A DNA stretch of 41,290 nucleotides, taken from contig DWUV01000054.1 of the NCBI GenBank assembly GCA_019120595.1, positions 1 through 41,290 of the forward strand, given 5' to 3'. A model generated the notes under the pieces. It was not told where the DNA came from, ran no database searches, and was given only the letters and a program-made list of their open reading frames with translations. The stretch is from Candidatus Mediterraneibacter tabaqchaliae. GTDB lineage: Bacteria > Bacillota > Clostridia > Lachnospirales > Lachnospiraceae. The position numbers and the translations under genes were made by a program. Below, one piece after another: positions 17,569 to 41,290 of the stretch. The number at the start of each line of letters is the position of its first letter. Within the stretch, counting starts at the first letter, position 1.

Positions 17569-17639
17569 GATCCTTATTAAAGCTTGCCATCTTTTCACCG
17601 GATAGTCAACCAGATTTTTCACCCATCTCACTCTTGCTG

Positions 17640-17669
17640 TTGTTTTTTGCGCCTTAACTATGGTATACT
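17640..17669 (+). promoter_or_regulatory. Promoter of the S1-domain gene
   Basis: -35 TTGTTT (17640-17645), an 18-bp spacer and -10 TATACT (17664-17669), with the start codon about 40 bp downstream. Confidence 0.6.
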
Positions 17670-17709
17670 AGGGGCATTGAAAAATCTATGTAAGTTGAGG
17701 TGCAGTACA

Positions 17710-18438
17710 ATGAGCGAAGAAATGAAAGAAACAATGCAGGCAGAGGAAACATCCCAGGCTCAGGCTGAGGAAGCTGCCGGAACAGAAACAACTGAAACAA
17801 TGGCTGATTATGAAGAACACTTTGATGACGCCAATCCCTGGAACAGGGTTGCCGAATATATGGAAAAGAAGACCGTACTCCCTGTAAAAGTAGAAGGAGT
17901 CGTCAACGGAGGCGTTATCGCAATGGTAGAGGGATTAAGGGGATTTGTACCCGCATCCAAGCTCTCCCTCTCCTACATCGAAGATCTTGAGACATATCTT
18001 CTCAAAGATATCGAGGTACAGGTCATTGACGTAGATCAGGCAAACAACCGCCTCGTACTTTCCGCACGCGAGATCCTGAAAGAAAAGGAGCGTAAAGCGC
18101 GCGAAGAGCAGATCGCAAACCTGAAGATCGGCACAGTCCTTGAGGGAACTGTTGAGACACTCCAGAATTACGGAGCATTCGTCAAACTCGAAAACGGACT
18201 GTCCGGGCTCGTCCATGTATCACAGATTTCCCAGAAACGGGTGAAAGTGCCGTCAGACGTCCTCAACGTGGGCGACAAAGTAACTGTCAAAGTTATCGGC
18301 ATCAAAGACGGGAAAGTAAGCCTGAGCATGAAGGCGCTCGAAGAAGTCAAAGAAGAGCCCGAGGAAAAAGTAGTGATCCCGAAGAGCGAGAATATCGGGA
18401 CCAGTCTGGGAGACCTCTTCAAAAACATCAAGCTGTAA
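17710..18438 (+). CDS. RNA-binding protein with two S1 domains
   Basis: A 242-residue protein. An acidic Glu/Thr-rich N-terminus (1-45) is followed by an S1 OB-fold at about 50-120 (VEGVVNGGVIAMVEGLRGFVP) and a second at about 143-215 (LEGTVETLQNYGAFVKLENG, then GLVHVSQIS), and a charged tail. It resembles short S1-like proteins of clostridia that bind mRNA or the 30S subunit rather than full ribosomal S1 with four to six domains. The start at 17710 was chosen for the GAGGTG before it; an upstream in-frame ATG at 17584 lies ahead of the promoter. The TAA stop is joined directly to a 360-bp palindromic element, which would form the 3' end of its mRNA. Confidence 0.9.
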   Translation: MSEEMKETMQAEETSQAQAEEAAGTETTETMADYEEHFDDANPWNRVAEYMEKKTVLPVKVEGVVNGGVIAMVEGLRGFVPASKLSLSYIEDLETYLLKDIEVQVIDVDQANNRLVLSAREILKEKERKAREEQIANLKIGTVLEGTVETLQNYGAFVKLENGLSGLVHVSQISQKRVKVPSDVLNVGDKVTVKVIGIKDGKVSLSMKALEEVKEEPEEKVVIPKSENIGTSLGDLFKNIKL

Positions 18439-18797
18439 ATCTGTATTTGTCAGGGAGACTGTGATTGAGTAAACCGGACGAAAACAGCGAAGCGCAGGTG
18501 TCGGGGACGTATTCAGCGCGAGGATATGGGTGGCATCGGCTCCGCTCCATGAGGCAGGAAAAACTACGAAATCAGGGAACACGCTAAAAGCAGGGATCTG
18601 AAGAGAGGAACTCGGCTCCGCCTCAGACACCCTCTCTTCTGATCCCAACGCGTGTCCCCTGATTTCTACTTTTTCCAGGCCTCATTCCGAAGTCGCCTCA
18701 ACCACCCATATCCCCGTCCGCCGCGAAAACGTCCCGCATCAAACCGACGGTTTTCGGACGTTTCACCAATCGTCCGGCTCCCCCACAAATACAGATT
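18438..18797 (+). repeat. 360-bp long-palindrome element, copy 1
   Basis: Bounded by a perfect 13-bp inverted repeat, AATCTGTATTTGT (18438-18450) and ACAAATACAGATT (18785-18797). Nearly the whole length pairs with itself: both arms hold GGATATGGGTGG, ATGAGGC and GAAATCAGG blocks in mirrored order, with scattered mismatches. The apex is CTCGGCTCCGCCTCAGACA (18611-18629), flanked by the stem GAAGAGAGG/CCTCTCTTC. The first base of the element is the last A of the S1 gene's TAA. A related element starts at 40995. No transposase is inside. The open frames across it are not supported. Confidence 0.9.
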
Positions 18798-18853
18798 GTA
18801 CAGTGCTGCAGATATCTGTTATTATGGACAGTGAAAAAAGGAGGTCTGTTAAT

Positions 18854-19192
18854 ATGAGTGAAATCCTGCTTGTCATCTATCATATACTTGCCCTGATCTT
18901 TGCGGCAGCGGGGATCGTTGTCCTGCGCAGCCGTTCTTCTTATCCGGATATGAAGGCGGGGTACCATGTAAAAGAAGCGATGAAAAGCAAAGAAACCTGG
19001 GAATATGCCAATGGCTTCTGCGGAAAGCTGTGCATGGTATTTACGGTTGTTTTCCTGCTGGCGCCGCGTTTCCTGATCTCGGCTGGCGCGGGGAATGCAG
19101 CGGGCACGGCTGTGCTGATCATCGGAGGCGCGCTTGCGGCGGCAGTGACAGTGCTCCTTCCGCTGCGGATGCTTCGCAGAAGAGAGAAATGA
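18854..19192 (+). CDS. SdpI-family small membrane protein
   Basis: A 112-residue protein with three predicted membrane helices (about 4-24, 57-77 and 82-104) and a basic C-terminus. The loop between the first two helices holds GYHVKEAMKSKETWEYAN followed by GFCGK, matching the conserved loop of the SdpI/YfhL family (G-Y-...-K-...-T-W-...-A-N-...-G-K). In Bacillus SdpI is the immunity protein to the SdpC toxin and a signalling partner. Most family members in clostridia are uncharacterised. The start ATG follows AGGAGG. No SdpC-like toxin gene is near, so immunity is not implied. Confidence 0.75.
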   Translation: MSEILLVIYHILALIFAAAGIVVLRSRSSYPDMKAGYHVKEAMKSKETWEYANGFCGKLCMVFTVVFLLAPRFLISAGAGNAAGTAVLIIGGALAAAVTVLLPLRMLRRREK

Positions 19193-22802: not shown

Positions 22803-22854
22803 ACAGTAAGATCAAGAGAAGTGTTTTGAGAGATATCTTTTATCCATAAAAAAT

Positions 22855-22897
22855 ATGCAGCCGGAAGTCTTGCCAGGGCTTCCGGCTGCATGTTTTT
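22855..22897. terminator. Bidirectional terminator between phosphatase and spoVAC
   Basis: ATGCAGCCGGAAG (22855-22867) pairs perfectly with CTTCCGGCTGCAT (22879-22891) over 13 bp, with T5 (22893-22897) on the plus side and a T-rich run on the minus side. It ends both the phosphatase gene and the leftward spoVAC transcript. Confidence 0.9.
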
Positions 22898-28341: not shown

Positions 28342-28354
28342 TTTTTTACATACG

Positions 28355-28404
28355 TTAAGCCTTTGTAAAGTTTACGGTTTCTTTACAAAGGCTTAATTTT
28401 TCTT
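28355..28404 (+). terminator. Strong terminator after the RpiR gene
   Basis: TTAAGCCTTTGTAAAG (28355-28370) pairs perfectly over 16 bp with CTTTACAAAGGCTTAA (28381-28396), with a 10-nt loop and then TTTTTCTTT. The same DNA carries TTTACG/TTTACA motifs, so it may double as a protein-binding site. Confidence 0.8.
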
Positions 28405-35447: not shown

Positions 35448-35518
35448 TGCGAATGGCGTGTGCTGAACAAAATCACACACAGAGAAATCCATAAAGAAAA
35501 AGATTTCCGCATTTAAAT

Positions 35519-35559
35519 ATGAGCCGGGAAGATATCAGGAGTATGTCTTCCCGGCTCAT
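35519..35559 (+). repeat. 14-bp hairpin directly before the pstC ribosome site
   Basis: ATGAGCCGGGAAGA (35519-35532) pairs perfectly with TCTTCCCGGCTCAT (35546-35559) over a 13-nt loop. One base later comes AGGAGG (35561-35566) of pstC. It is the second stem between pstS and pstC, and could protect an mRNA 5' end produced by processing in this gap. Confidence 0.75.
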
Positions 35560-35571
35560 CAGGAGGAAAAA

Positions 35572-38948: not shown

Positions 38949-39623
38949 ATGATATATTGCGTGGAAGATGACGACAACATCCGTGAGCTTGTGATATATA
39001 CTCTGGAGACGACAGGCCTGAAAGCCCGGGGGTTTGCGGAAGGTTCTGCCTTCATGGAGGCTCTGGCGTTTGATACGCCGGAGCTGATCCTGCTTGATAT
39101 CATGCTCCCCGGAGACGATGGGCTGGTGCTTTTGAAGAAGCTGAAATCCTCTCCTAAGACAAAAGGGATCCCGGTGATCATGGTCACAGCAAAGGGCACA
39201 GAGTATGACAAAGTGATCGGCCTGGATTCCGGTGCGGATGACTATGTGACAAAGCCGTTCGGCATGATGGAGCTCGTCTCCAGGATCAAGGCGGTCCTGC
39301 GCCGCTCCGGGAAAGTGGAGGACAGGATCGATATGGAATTTTCAGGCGTCCGCATGGACATCAAAAAACATGAAGTCACTGTGGACGGAAAGCAGGTAGC
39401 GCTCACCCTCAAAGAATTTGAACTCCTGGAGAAACTGATGCGCAATCAGGGGATCGTCCTGACAAGGGACCAGCTCCTGACAGAGATCTGGGGCTATGAT
39501 TTTGACGGAGAGACGAGGACCGTGGATGTACATATCCGAACTTTGAGACAGAAGCTGGGCGCAAAAGGAGAGATCATCCAGACTGTCCGCGGCGTAGGAT
39601 ACCGGGTTGGAGGAACCGCATAG
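38949..39623 (+). CDS. phoP: Phosphate response regulator PhoP (PhoB-type)
   Basis: A 224-residue OmpR/PhoB-class regulator. The receiver domain (1-115) has the acidic pocket EDDD (6-9), phospho-acceptor Asp50 in LILLDIMLPGDDG, Thr in MVTAKG and Lys in DDYVTKPFG. The winged helix (about 125-222) ends with RTVDVHIRTLRQKLG and IQTVRGVGYRV. It binds Pho boxes upstream of phosphate-starvation genes; candidates in this window lie before pstS, the phosphatase and the RpiR gene. AGGAG precedes the ATG. The kinase gene starts one base after its stop. Confidence 0.95.
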   Translation: MIYCVEDDDNIRELVIYTLETTGLKARGFAEGSAFMEALAFDTPELILLDIMLPGDDGLVLLKKLKSSPKTKGIPVIMVTAKGTEYDKVIGLDSGADDYVTKPFGMMELVSRIKAVLRRSGKVEDRIDMEFSGVRMDIKKHEVTVDGKQVALTLKEFELLEKLMRNQGIVLTRDQLLTEIWGYDFDGETRTVDVHIRTLRQKLGAKGEIIQTVRGVGYRVGGTA

Positions 39624-39624
39624 T

Positions 39625-40995
39625 ATGGTACAGCAGATTCAGCAGAACATTCAGAAAAAAAGGGAAAAGAAAATTCCCAGGAGCATGAGGCTGAAGATAC
39701 AGAAGAGCATGATGGCCATTCTCGCAGTGACCTTCGTGCTTTTCTATGTTATCCTGTCCGTGATCCTCTATAACCAGAACCTTTCCGTCCTGCGGGCAGA
39801 AGTGAGGCAGGAGGCGAAATACATCTGCACGGCGGTCAATATTTCCGGGACAGAATACCTGGAGCAGATGGTCAATATAGATGAATCCACCCGCGTAACC
39901 CGCATCGACGCAGACGGCAGTGTGCTCTACGACTCCCGGCGCGACGCGGATACCCTTGACAATCACAGCGGGAGAGAAGAAGTACGGGAAGCGGTAAAAA
40001 ACGGGGAAGGCGAAGATGTGCGGCGCTCTGTGACCGTGGAGAAAGATCTGTATTACTATGCGATGCTCCTGGATGACGGGAGCGTGCTGCGCGTATCCAG
40101 GGAAGTAGACAGCCTTGCCAGCACGGCCCTGGCCATGCTCCCGGTGATCGGGGGGCTTGCTGTCCTGGTAACCATTTTTGCCATGCTGCTCGCAAAATGG
40201 CAGACAGCCCGCCTCATCAAGCCGATCAATGAGCTGGACCTGGAGCACCCGCTTGACAATGATGTCTATACAGAATTAAGCCCCCTCCTTACAGCGATGG
40301 ACAGACAGAACAAGGAGAAAGAAGCGGTCTCCAATATGAGGAAAGAGTTTTCCGCAAATGTATCCCATGAGCTCAAGACTCCCCTGACCTCGATCTCGGG
40401 CTATGCGGAGATCATGAAAAACGGCATGGTGCGCCCGGCGGACATCCCGGTATTTTCGGAGCGCATCTACAAGGAAGCGCGCCGTCTGATCACTCTTGTG
40501 GAGGACATCATCAAGCTGTCCAAGCTGGATGAGGAATCTGTGGAACTGGAGAAACAGGAGGTAGACCTCTACGACCTGACCAGAGAGATCATCAGCCGGC
40601 TGGCTCCCCAGGCGTCCCAGAAAAACGTGCGCATGGAGCTGACCGGGGAGCCCGTGAAGTATACCGGCATCCGGCAGATCCTTGATGAGATGGTGTACAA
40701 TGTATGTGAAAATGCGATCAAATACAATAACGACGGCGGAAGGGTCACTGTCTGGGTCGGCAATACCCTGGAGGGTCCTAAGATCAGCGTCACGGATACA
40801 GGTATCGGCATCCCGGCGGAGCACCACGAACGTATCTTCGAACGGTTCTACCGGGTGGATAAGAGCCATTCCAAAGAACGCGGCGGGACCGGGCTGGGGC
40901 TGTCCATCGTCAAGCACGGGGCACTGCTGCACGGAGCAAAAGTCAGCGTAGAGAGCGCGCCCGGGAAAGGGACGAAGATCGAGATGCAGTTTTAA
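39625..40995 (+). CDS. phoR: Phosphate sensor histidine kinase PhoR
   Basis: A 456-residue membrane kinase. Two helices (about 28-50 and 168-190) frame an extracytoplasmic domain of about 115 residues. A short linker leads to the HisKA domain with His248 in VSHELKTPLTSISGY. The ATPase domain shows N box NVCENAIKYN, G1 DTGIGIP, F box ERFYRVDKSH and G2 GGTGLGLSIVKH. No PAS domain is obvious between HAMP-like linker and HisKA, unlike Bacillus PhoR. ATG 39625 uses GGAGG in the end of phoP; an in-frame TTG at 39607 is less likely. The TAA stop abuts the second palindromic element. Confidence 0.94.
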   Translation: MVQQIQQNIQKKREKKIPRSMRLKIQKSMMAILAVTFVLFYVILSVILYNQNLSVLRAEVRQEAKYICTAVNISGTEYLEQMVNIDESTRVTRIDADGSVLYDSRRDADTLDNHSGREEVREAVKNGEGEDVRRSVTVEKDLYYYAMLLDDGSVLRVSREVDSLASTALAMLPVIGGLAVLVTIFAMLLAKWQTARLIKPINELDLEHPLDNDVYTELSPLLTAMDRQNKEKEAVSNMRKEFSANVSHELKTPLTSISGYAEIMKNGMVRPADIPVFSERIYKEARRLITLVEDIIKLSKLDEESVELEKQEVDLYDLTREIISRLAPQASQKNVRMELTGEPVKYTGIRQILDEMVYNVCENAIKYNNDGGRVTVWVGNTLEGPKISVTDTGIGIPAEHHERIFERFYRVDKSHSKERGGTGLGLSIVKHGALLHGAKVSVESAPGKGTKIEMQF

Positions 40996-41290
40996 ATCTG
41001 GATTTGTGGGGGAGCCTTCCTTCAAATATACCGTCCGAAAACCGTCGGTTTGATGAGAGACGGTTTCGCGGCGGACGGGGATATGGCTCAGGTTCCGGTT
41101 CCGTAATCTGGGAAAGACGTAAAAGGGAGAAAGCATGGCTAAAAGCAATTGTCCGGCGGAAGATTCGGCTCTGCCTCAGGCATCCGCCGGACAATTAACG
41201 CCACGCTTTCTCCCTTTAAGTCTTTCCGGCAGATTACTCCAAGTCACCGTCGCCATATCCCCGTCCGCCGCGAAAGGCGCATCAAAGGGG
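40995..41290 (+). repeat. Long-palindrome element, copy 2 (cut by window edge)
   Basis: It begins AATCTGGATTTGT (40995-41007), one base different from the end repeat of copy 1, on the last A of the phoR TAA. The left arm repeats the CGTCCGAAAACCGTCGG and GGCGGACGGGGATATGG blocks of copy 1. The centre is a perfect 12-bp stem (41149-41160 with 41183-41194) around TTCGGCTCTGCCTCAGGCA (41164-41182), nearly identical to the apex of copy 1. The right arm starts (CCATATCCCCGTCCGCCGCG) but the right end repeat lies beyond the window. Expected full length is about 355 bp by symmetry. Confidence 0.88.

Follow-up and report, generated by a model that had tools for sequence, protein, structure and literature searches.

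The stretch of DNA analysed here (the window) comprises 41,290 nucleotides of Candidatus Mediterraneibacter tabaqchaliae and is the entire contig C24 of the organism's own assembly (G000; 2.70 Mb in 236 contigs). A gene for an S1 RNA-binding-domain protein (17584–18438, plus strand), whose C-terminus matches that of its orthologues, ends in a TAA stop codon at 18436–18438, and the last base of this codon is at the same time the first base of a fold-back element of about 360 bp at 18438–18797 (copy 1). At the other border, the −35 hexamer of a promoter-like site (TGTACA-17-TATTAT, 18797–18825, plus strand; 9/12, TG before the −10) begins at the final base of the element, 18797. The gene that follows encodes an SdpI/YfhL-family protein (18854–19192, plus strand; the mechanical open reading frame is 18803–19192, and AGGAGG precedes the ATG at 18854). 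Two promoter-like sites are present in 18300–18950 against 0.4 expected, and a search of the same interval for intrinsic terminators (a GC-rich short-loop hairpin with a T run) returned none. The window copy is a clean example of stop codon, element and −35-like hexamer abutting one another.

A preliminary description had presented this element as a 360-bp imperfect palindrome with perfect 13-bp terminal inverted repeats (AATCTGTATTTGT / ACAAATACAGATT) and arms that mirror each other over most of its length, and arm pairing and folding confirm each of these points. The outer 48 nt of the arms are 71% complementary, and five inner pairs of 10–36 nt reach 78–94%. Matched to the pattern AATCTGDATTTGNNGGGGAG, the left terminal inverted repeat (18438–18457, plus strand) has one mismatch and the right one (18778–18797, minus strand) has none. 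RNA folding gives −171.8 kcal/mol on the plus strand and −195 on the minus strand (z of −12.3 and −11.4, respectively), with 0 of 100 shuffles folding as well on either strand. Copy 1 is a one-unit form with an A-type hairpin and a B-type right end, and its conserved hairpin core lies at 18562–18672 on the minus strand (covariance model, 88.5 bits, E 7.6e-21). That the element encodes no protein seems borne out, given that two tested inner open reading frames of a full-length copy match nothing in Pfam.

The related copy reported at 40995, downstream of phoR, is real by both end pattern and core, with the refinement that it is of B type and that only its left part (40995–41290) is present before the contig end cuts it. 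Its first base, 40995, is the final base of the stop codon (TAA, 40993–40995) of a PhoR-like histidine kinase gene (39607–40995, plus strand). By blastn the two copies can be aligned along 92 nt of the outer block, at 83% identity, and along a further stretch of 23 nt. The end pattern, allowing up to 3 mismatches, has three matches in the window (18438 on the plus, 18797 on the minus and 40995 on the plus strand) against 0.08 expected. Two strong cores emerge from the scan with the covariance model, each of them on the minus strand; the second lies at 41117–41222 (84.2 bits, E 1.1e-19). Only the latter is an independent find of the model, because the core of copy 1 (L001) is one of the 39 sequences from which the model was built. 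The next best match has an E-value of 0.014; the weak matches at 35514–35564, 28352–28399 and 22850–22896 (E 0.014–0.023) resemble ordinary small hairpins. Rfam 15 does not point to a known RNA family: it gave no match in the whole window at the gathering threshold and, for 10 loci at E 1, eight matches to microRNA families, each far under its gathering score.

Full elements measure about 955 bp (about 955–965) and consist of a hairpin unit A, a linker of about 200 bp and an inverted hairpin unit B. The two units are homologous and face each other, and the terminal inverted repeats of the element read AAATCTG(T/G)ATTTG... A set of 45 complete elements from genome G002, for which end pairs of up to 1050 bp were allowed, spans 41–961 bp, with 10 at 953–961 bp and 11 at 339–360 bp. 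Inverted B-B (L104, L100) and A-A (L090) arrangements also occur, as do short-linker forms (L088, L093) and deleted forms, including the internally deleted L207, whose junction resembles a short repeat. The linker (for example at about 1590–1640 of L031) contains a small hairpin with paired variation, reading either GGCCCAGCTTGCTGGGCC or GGCGCAGCTCGCTGCGCC, ahead of a well conserved AAATCGAACGGCTAACCCTCTCCCGGAA.

A search of the host genome and other Lachnospiraceae, as the preliminary description had proposed, revealed dozens of copies in the own genome and further copies in relatives, and hence the family extends well beyond the window. With the covariance model at E 1e-5 and 150 candidates scored per genome, there are 52 cores in G000, 68 in G002, 48 in G036, 109 in G057, 47 in G008 and 16 in G700; these totals are not element counts, because a full element holds two cores. 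The end pattern with up to 2 mismatches gives 46+48 matches in G000, 55+40 in G002 and 32+30 in G036, with none for the reversed control. A DNA search of G000 with the element gave 86 matches at E 1 (both palindrome orientations; 40 of 110 candidates scored). Many G000 contigs terminate inside a copy; the repeat therefore probably breaks the assembly, and the copy number in G000 is likely to be a lower bound.

Across the genus, a long query at E 0.001 matches 32 of 58 genomes (8 candidates scored in each), and among 200 family genomes it matches the own genome only (2 candidates scored in each); with so few candidates scored, the negatives of this query weigh little. Searched with a gapped core pattern, the genus yields 35 of 58 genomes with a match (none for the reversed control) and the family 7 of 397 (one for the reversed control); 5 of these 7 are of other genera, and one of the five, G127, has an unusual spacing. 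At the level of the order, the covariance model matches 9 of 295 genomes at E 1e-5, the own genome included; four of the others are in the family and four in other families, the latter with best E-values, which are rough, of 8.4e-11, 6.1e-9, 1.1e-6 and 2.3e-6. The core recurs in other genera and, more weakly, in other families. An exact B-core pattern retrieved 70 stretches from the genome contig collection, all of An76 or Mediterraneibacter, and several of the Mediterraneibacter species names among them point to chickens. A phage origin was rejected, as neither of two core patterns is matched exactly in the viral collection. Among titles and abstracts, which are not the full literature, we found no description of this repeat family and none of repetitive elements in Mediterraneibacter, and the fold-back repeat family is best read as new.

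The preliminary description had proposed a test for enrichment downstream of stop codons, and element ends do often abut them. At 107 of 170 element ends the stop codon of the incoming open reading frame (at least 100 codons; ends with too little flank were skipped) lies within 4 nt of the first A of AATCTG. These stops are TAA (73), TGA (20) and TAG (14), and at 52 of the 107 the first A of the element is the last base of TAA. Counted over ends with an incoming open reading frame, stop adjacency holds for 57 of 75 in G002, 27 of 38 in G000, 2 of 3 in the window and 26 of 34 elsewhere (all ends: 89 in G002, 43 in G000 and 43 in others). The counts cover a subset of loci rather than every element of each genome, and they are not all independent, because some ends are orthologous sites of two species (L214/L042, L079/L044). 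By the same measure 63 of the 170 ends lie away from a stop codon. In a promoter scan that added two loci (171 ends), promoter-like sites are present at 18 of 64 non-stop ends, 14 of them with the −35 starting 0–9 nt away; the figures for comparison are 5 of the 107 ends next to a stop and 0.087 after shuffling. At L022 (about 1000–1030) a minus-strand gene that converges on a hydrogenase gene seems to extend through a truncated end of the element, which appears to supply the last residues and the stop of that gene; in G016 (L095) the coding sequence at the matching place resembles an element end (GTATTTGTGGGGGA).

Fitting between one stop codon and another, or between a stop codon and a promoter, is how a host-built 3' end device would behave, that is, a bidirectional transcription or processing signal kept by the cell and spread by recombination. 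The outer A-tract/T-tract stem of 30 of 49 long elements and the lack of a native terminator spacer at the G002 sigE site that carries an element also favour such a device. We nevertheless consider it rather unlikely, given that classical intrinsic terminators are few (none in 18300–18950 and 5 of the 49 long elements) and that copy number within the genus ranges from none (strict pattern) to 109 (model). In deep relatives, furthermore, orientation to the neighbouring genes is mixed (9/8/7/6 over the 30 loci, out of 34, whose two neighbours could both be classed), and promoters for a minus-strand RNA show no clear excess (8 of 34 deep copies against 5 of 34 in the control). The deep set leaves out 9 of the 43 loci L284–L326, from species already used (G000, G016, G020, G036, G037 and G044).

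Our preferred reading, a dispersed repeat whose folded strand is under selection, draws on the conservation of the fold. Read on the minus strand, the core has the consensus RCGUUR-stem-UGYYUGAG-loop-CGARUY-stem-UGYYUUUAGY. In an alignment of 39 distinct minus-strand cores, from which near-identical ones had been dropped, loop bases are invariant and stems vary freely, the internal loops being the most conserved columns. RNAalifold predicts 29 pairs, 26 of them changing on both sides. The covariation expected of a conserved structure is strong: 89.5% of cells are paired, compared with 59.0% after shuffling and 37.7–50.5% with slid partners, and the covariation score is 0.817 compared with 0.231 shuffled and at most 0.316 slid. 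The number of double-change pairs is reached by 93 of 500 shuffles, and the weight of the covariation therefore rests on the other measures. Paired substitutions beyond these controls indicate a structured RNA or a folded single strand. As the stems change in pairs and the internal loops stay fixed, selection acts to keep the folded single strand.

The strand that folds appears to be the minus strand. Scored symmetrically over 49 cluster representatives, with some loop columns included, transition mismatches in plus-strand stems are A.C in 110 cases versus G.T in 48; over 74 cores the ratio is 27 versus 5 in the apical stem and 46 versus 22 in the next stem. An excess of A.C on the plus strand means that the complement keeps pairing by G.U. 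The minus strand is also the more stable in 61 of 83 units (those of at least 310 bp kept from 131 non-overlapping matches) and in 29 of 34 deep cores from 29 genomes. Counts on plus-strand RNAalifold structures gave the contrary result, with G-U above A-C (150:70 and 133:76, 3 of the 83 units being of neither type and left out); in our view the cause is that the prediction of those structures itself permitted G-U on the plus strand, and the symmetric counts replace this result. A crude pairing count (A.C 126, G.T 94) was set aside as out of register at stem ends. The strand bias is compatible with RNA and likewise with folded single-stranded DNA, in which G.T is also tolerated. Within full-length elements, the minus strand of both units points away from the centre, antisense to whichever gene reads in from outside. 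To call the element a stable 3' UTR of its upstream gene is hence too simple, and the earlier suggestion of a family of large 3' hairpins holds in part: the placement of ends at stop codons and the strong covariation agree with it, but the favoured strand does not.

Paired changes could also stem from homogenisation of the palindrome at the DNA level, by template switching between the arms, in which case the fold would be functionless. Long palindromes are prone to such arm correction, and internally deleted forms such as L207 suggest slippage. Homogenisation should, however, erase mismatched internal loops, yet these are the most conserved columns, and it predicts no strand bias in wobble pairs, contrary to the bias observed. 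We regard it as very improbable and retain selection on the folded strand as the explanation of the covariation.

The alternative suggestion of the preliminary description, a non-autonomous mobile element, agrees with the dozens of copies per genome, the terminal inverted repeats, the shorter forms and the changed orthologous sites described below, but neither a clear target duplication nor a transposase partner accompanies them. For 112 end pairs, of which a few share ends, direct repeats of 2–10 nt are close to those of shuffled partners: 7 versus 4.7 expected at 3 nt, 2 versus 0.8 at 4 nt and 1 versus 0.2 at 5 nt, with none longer. Likewise, no element containing a transposase was seen, nor any annotated insertion sequence or MITE with a transposase, in searches that covered, among databases of known families, Rfam and Pfam. 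An ordinary MITE, meaning an IS-derived miniature element mobilised by a transposase and represented by decayed copies, would account for the terminal inverted repeats, the high copy number, the lack of any coding sequence found and the ladder of sizes with conserved ends, which recalls the size gradients reported for QMITE1/2 (PMC10969869). It is nonetheless a minority possibility, if a serious one. The lack of a clear target duplication means that the label fails a defining test, the longest of the 45 complete G002 elements (961 bp) is too short for an inner transposase gene, and nested homologous hairpins with a core motif found in other genera are unexpected of IS scraps. In its working the element is comparable to a MITE-like repeat of modular build whose fold is selected, but it fails one test of a MITE and matches no Rfam family.

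The same chromosomal sites were compared between species at the 3' ends of the S1 gene (matches in 57 of 58 genus genomes, 20 neighbourhoods read, some cut by contig ends), sigE (54 of 58, 21 read) and a hydrogenase gene (50 of 58, 24 read). In some species the element sits precisely at the stop codon, in others the interior differs and the start is roughly similar (AAATTCGTGTTTG in G054, AAATCTGAGATTG in G029), and the remainder have ordinary terminator-like hairpins or none. Element-like starts with an unrelated interior were noted at the sigE or hydrogenase stops in L249, L266 (G029), L273 (G015), L274 (G033) and L276 (G054); they may belong to sister families that occupy the same places. 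The native spacer between the convergent genes at sigE measures about 52–98 bp in four relatives that lack the element there (G048, G027, G055 and G056), and an element replaces it in G002 (41 bp) and G054 (876 bp). Behind the S1 gene in L114 (G036), the element is continuous with what resembles the end of a group II intron.

Between G000, G002 and G036, 11 site pairs were compared, of which 4 share both flanks at 91–98% identity. At three of these the flanks are 92–98% identical and the orthologous elements 79–84%, and the best paralogues within the same genome reach 87–93%; at the fourth (L020/L231) the orthologues are closer, with 94.7% over 416 nt versus 80.7% for the best paralogue. Of the other seven pairs, five share one flank (93–99%), one repeats a two-flank locus via its inner end and one is a 69% match. 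The one-flank pairs are a weak hint at copies on rearrangement breakpoints, weak because some of the loci lie near contig ends. No pair of empty and filled sites between close strains, which would show transposition itself, was found, and an apparent empty site (L160 versus L153/L232) was judged an artefact of a nearby element.

REP and REPIN sequences, which are moved by RAYT transposases, are inverted hairpin pairs in extragenic positions and lack target duplications. A REP/REPIN-like system, in which inverted hairpin pairs move as folded single strands by means of a single-copy Y1 (RAYT) transposase, would thus resemble the present family in its inverted hairpin pair around a spacer, its extragenic location and the absence of a clear target duplication, and Y1-domain matches do occur in 49 of 58 genus genomes, many in open frames of about 250–310 aa. 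The hairpins here are much longer, however, and the core occurs in only 1 of 20 chosen Y1-gene neighbourhoods (L370), at a distance of about 2.3 kb. Directly behind the Y1 gene, 14 of the 20 have a different palindrome (...GGGACGTAG... / ACTACGTCCCC), and the element-rich G037 has no Y1 match. We therefore judge this kinship quite unlikely and treat a link to the RAYT gene as unsupported. The palindromic repeat lies directly after the Y1 gene (GGGACAGGGTAAA... and ...ACTACGTCCCC; 14 of the 20 loci L363–L382) and looks to be a REP-like system in its own right; at this place L365 and L367 show yet another small palindrome.

Several other known systems can be set beside the family by their descriptions. 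Integron attC sites have variable stems, conserved bulges and one folded strand, all of which recur here, although no cassette array was noticed around the elements. Stem-loops near stop codons have been described in low-GC Firmicutes (PMC1590033). BOX, RUP and SPRITE of Streptococcus pneumoniae are likewise modular, dispersed, predicted stem-loops enriched downstream of genes, and SPRITE resembles a terminator (PMC3049150); here, by contrast, the unit is about 350 nt, is doubled in inverted form to about 955 bp and has ends abutting a stop codon or a −35. The bacterial MITEs QMITE1/2 and Chunjie, for which size gradients and a size of 50–500 bp are reported (PMC10969869), are similar in their terminal inverted repeats, size gradient with conserved ends and non-coding nature, but differ from elements of up to 961 bp with nested conserved hairpins, no clear target duplication and no related IS seen. 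MRSC-65-2, a candidate mobile element or repeat, also has one long covarying stem and often dozens of copies per genome, and its authors leave open whether DNA or RNA folds (PMC11109978); it has a repeated UYCCGG, whereas the present core has the fixed internal loops CGUU/UGYYUUUAG and UGYYUGAG/CGARUY.

Taken together, the element is likely to represent a non-autonomous, non-coding family of dispersed fold-back repeats in which the folded single strand is under selection. As to mechanism, a protein acting in trans may recognise the folded strand or the ends and thereby spread the element. Deletion, whether adjacent or plain, could then remove leftover spacer up to the point where the element borders on DNA that the cell needs, and sites might stay occupied, being overwritten by gene conversion or re-insertion. 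The element would now serve as the spacer that separates transcription units, without a classical terminator; a terminator-like role is an inference, and canonical terminators are rare. A more specific version, which we put forward as a speculation with the odds against it, is a class of protein-free mobile hairpins defined by the folded strand. Its core would consist of a single internal-loop motif present twice, the copies related by a 180-degree rotation about a stem of near-fixed length, and would be recognised as RNA or single-stranded DNA by a Lachnospirales protein; the hairpin would be placed or re-written between stop codon and promoter without target duplication, becoming the spacer itself.

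Dispersed hairpin repeats of bacteria are usually treated as loose extragenic debris. In the family described here, with up to 109 core matches per genome, the borders often coincide with functional gene borders to within a few bases, and it is the fold, more than the sequence, that is kept from genus to genus. Its copies are the probable reason for assembly breaks at these sites in such species, and the family yields a testable prediction, a partner protein that depends on folding. The family thus offers a natural experiment in how non-coding, possibly selfish DNA turns into the DNA of gene boundaries.
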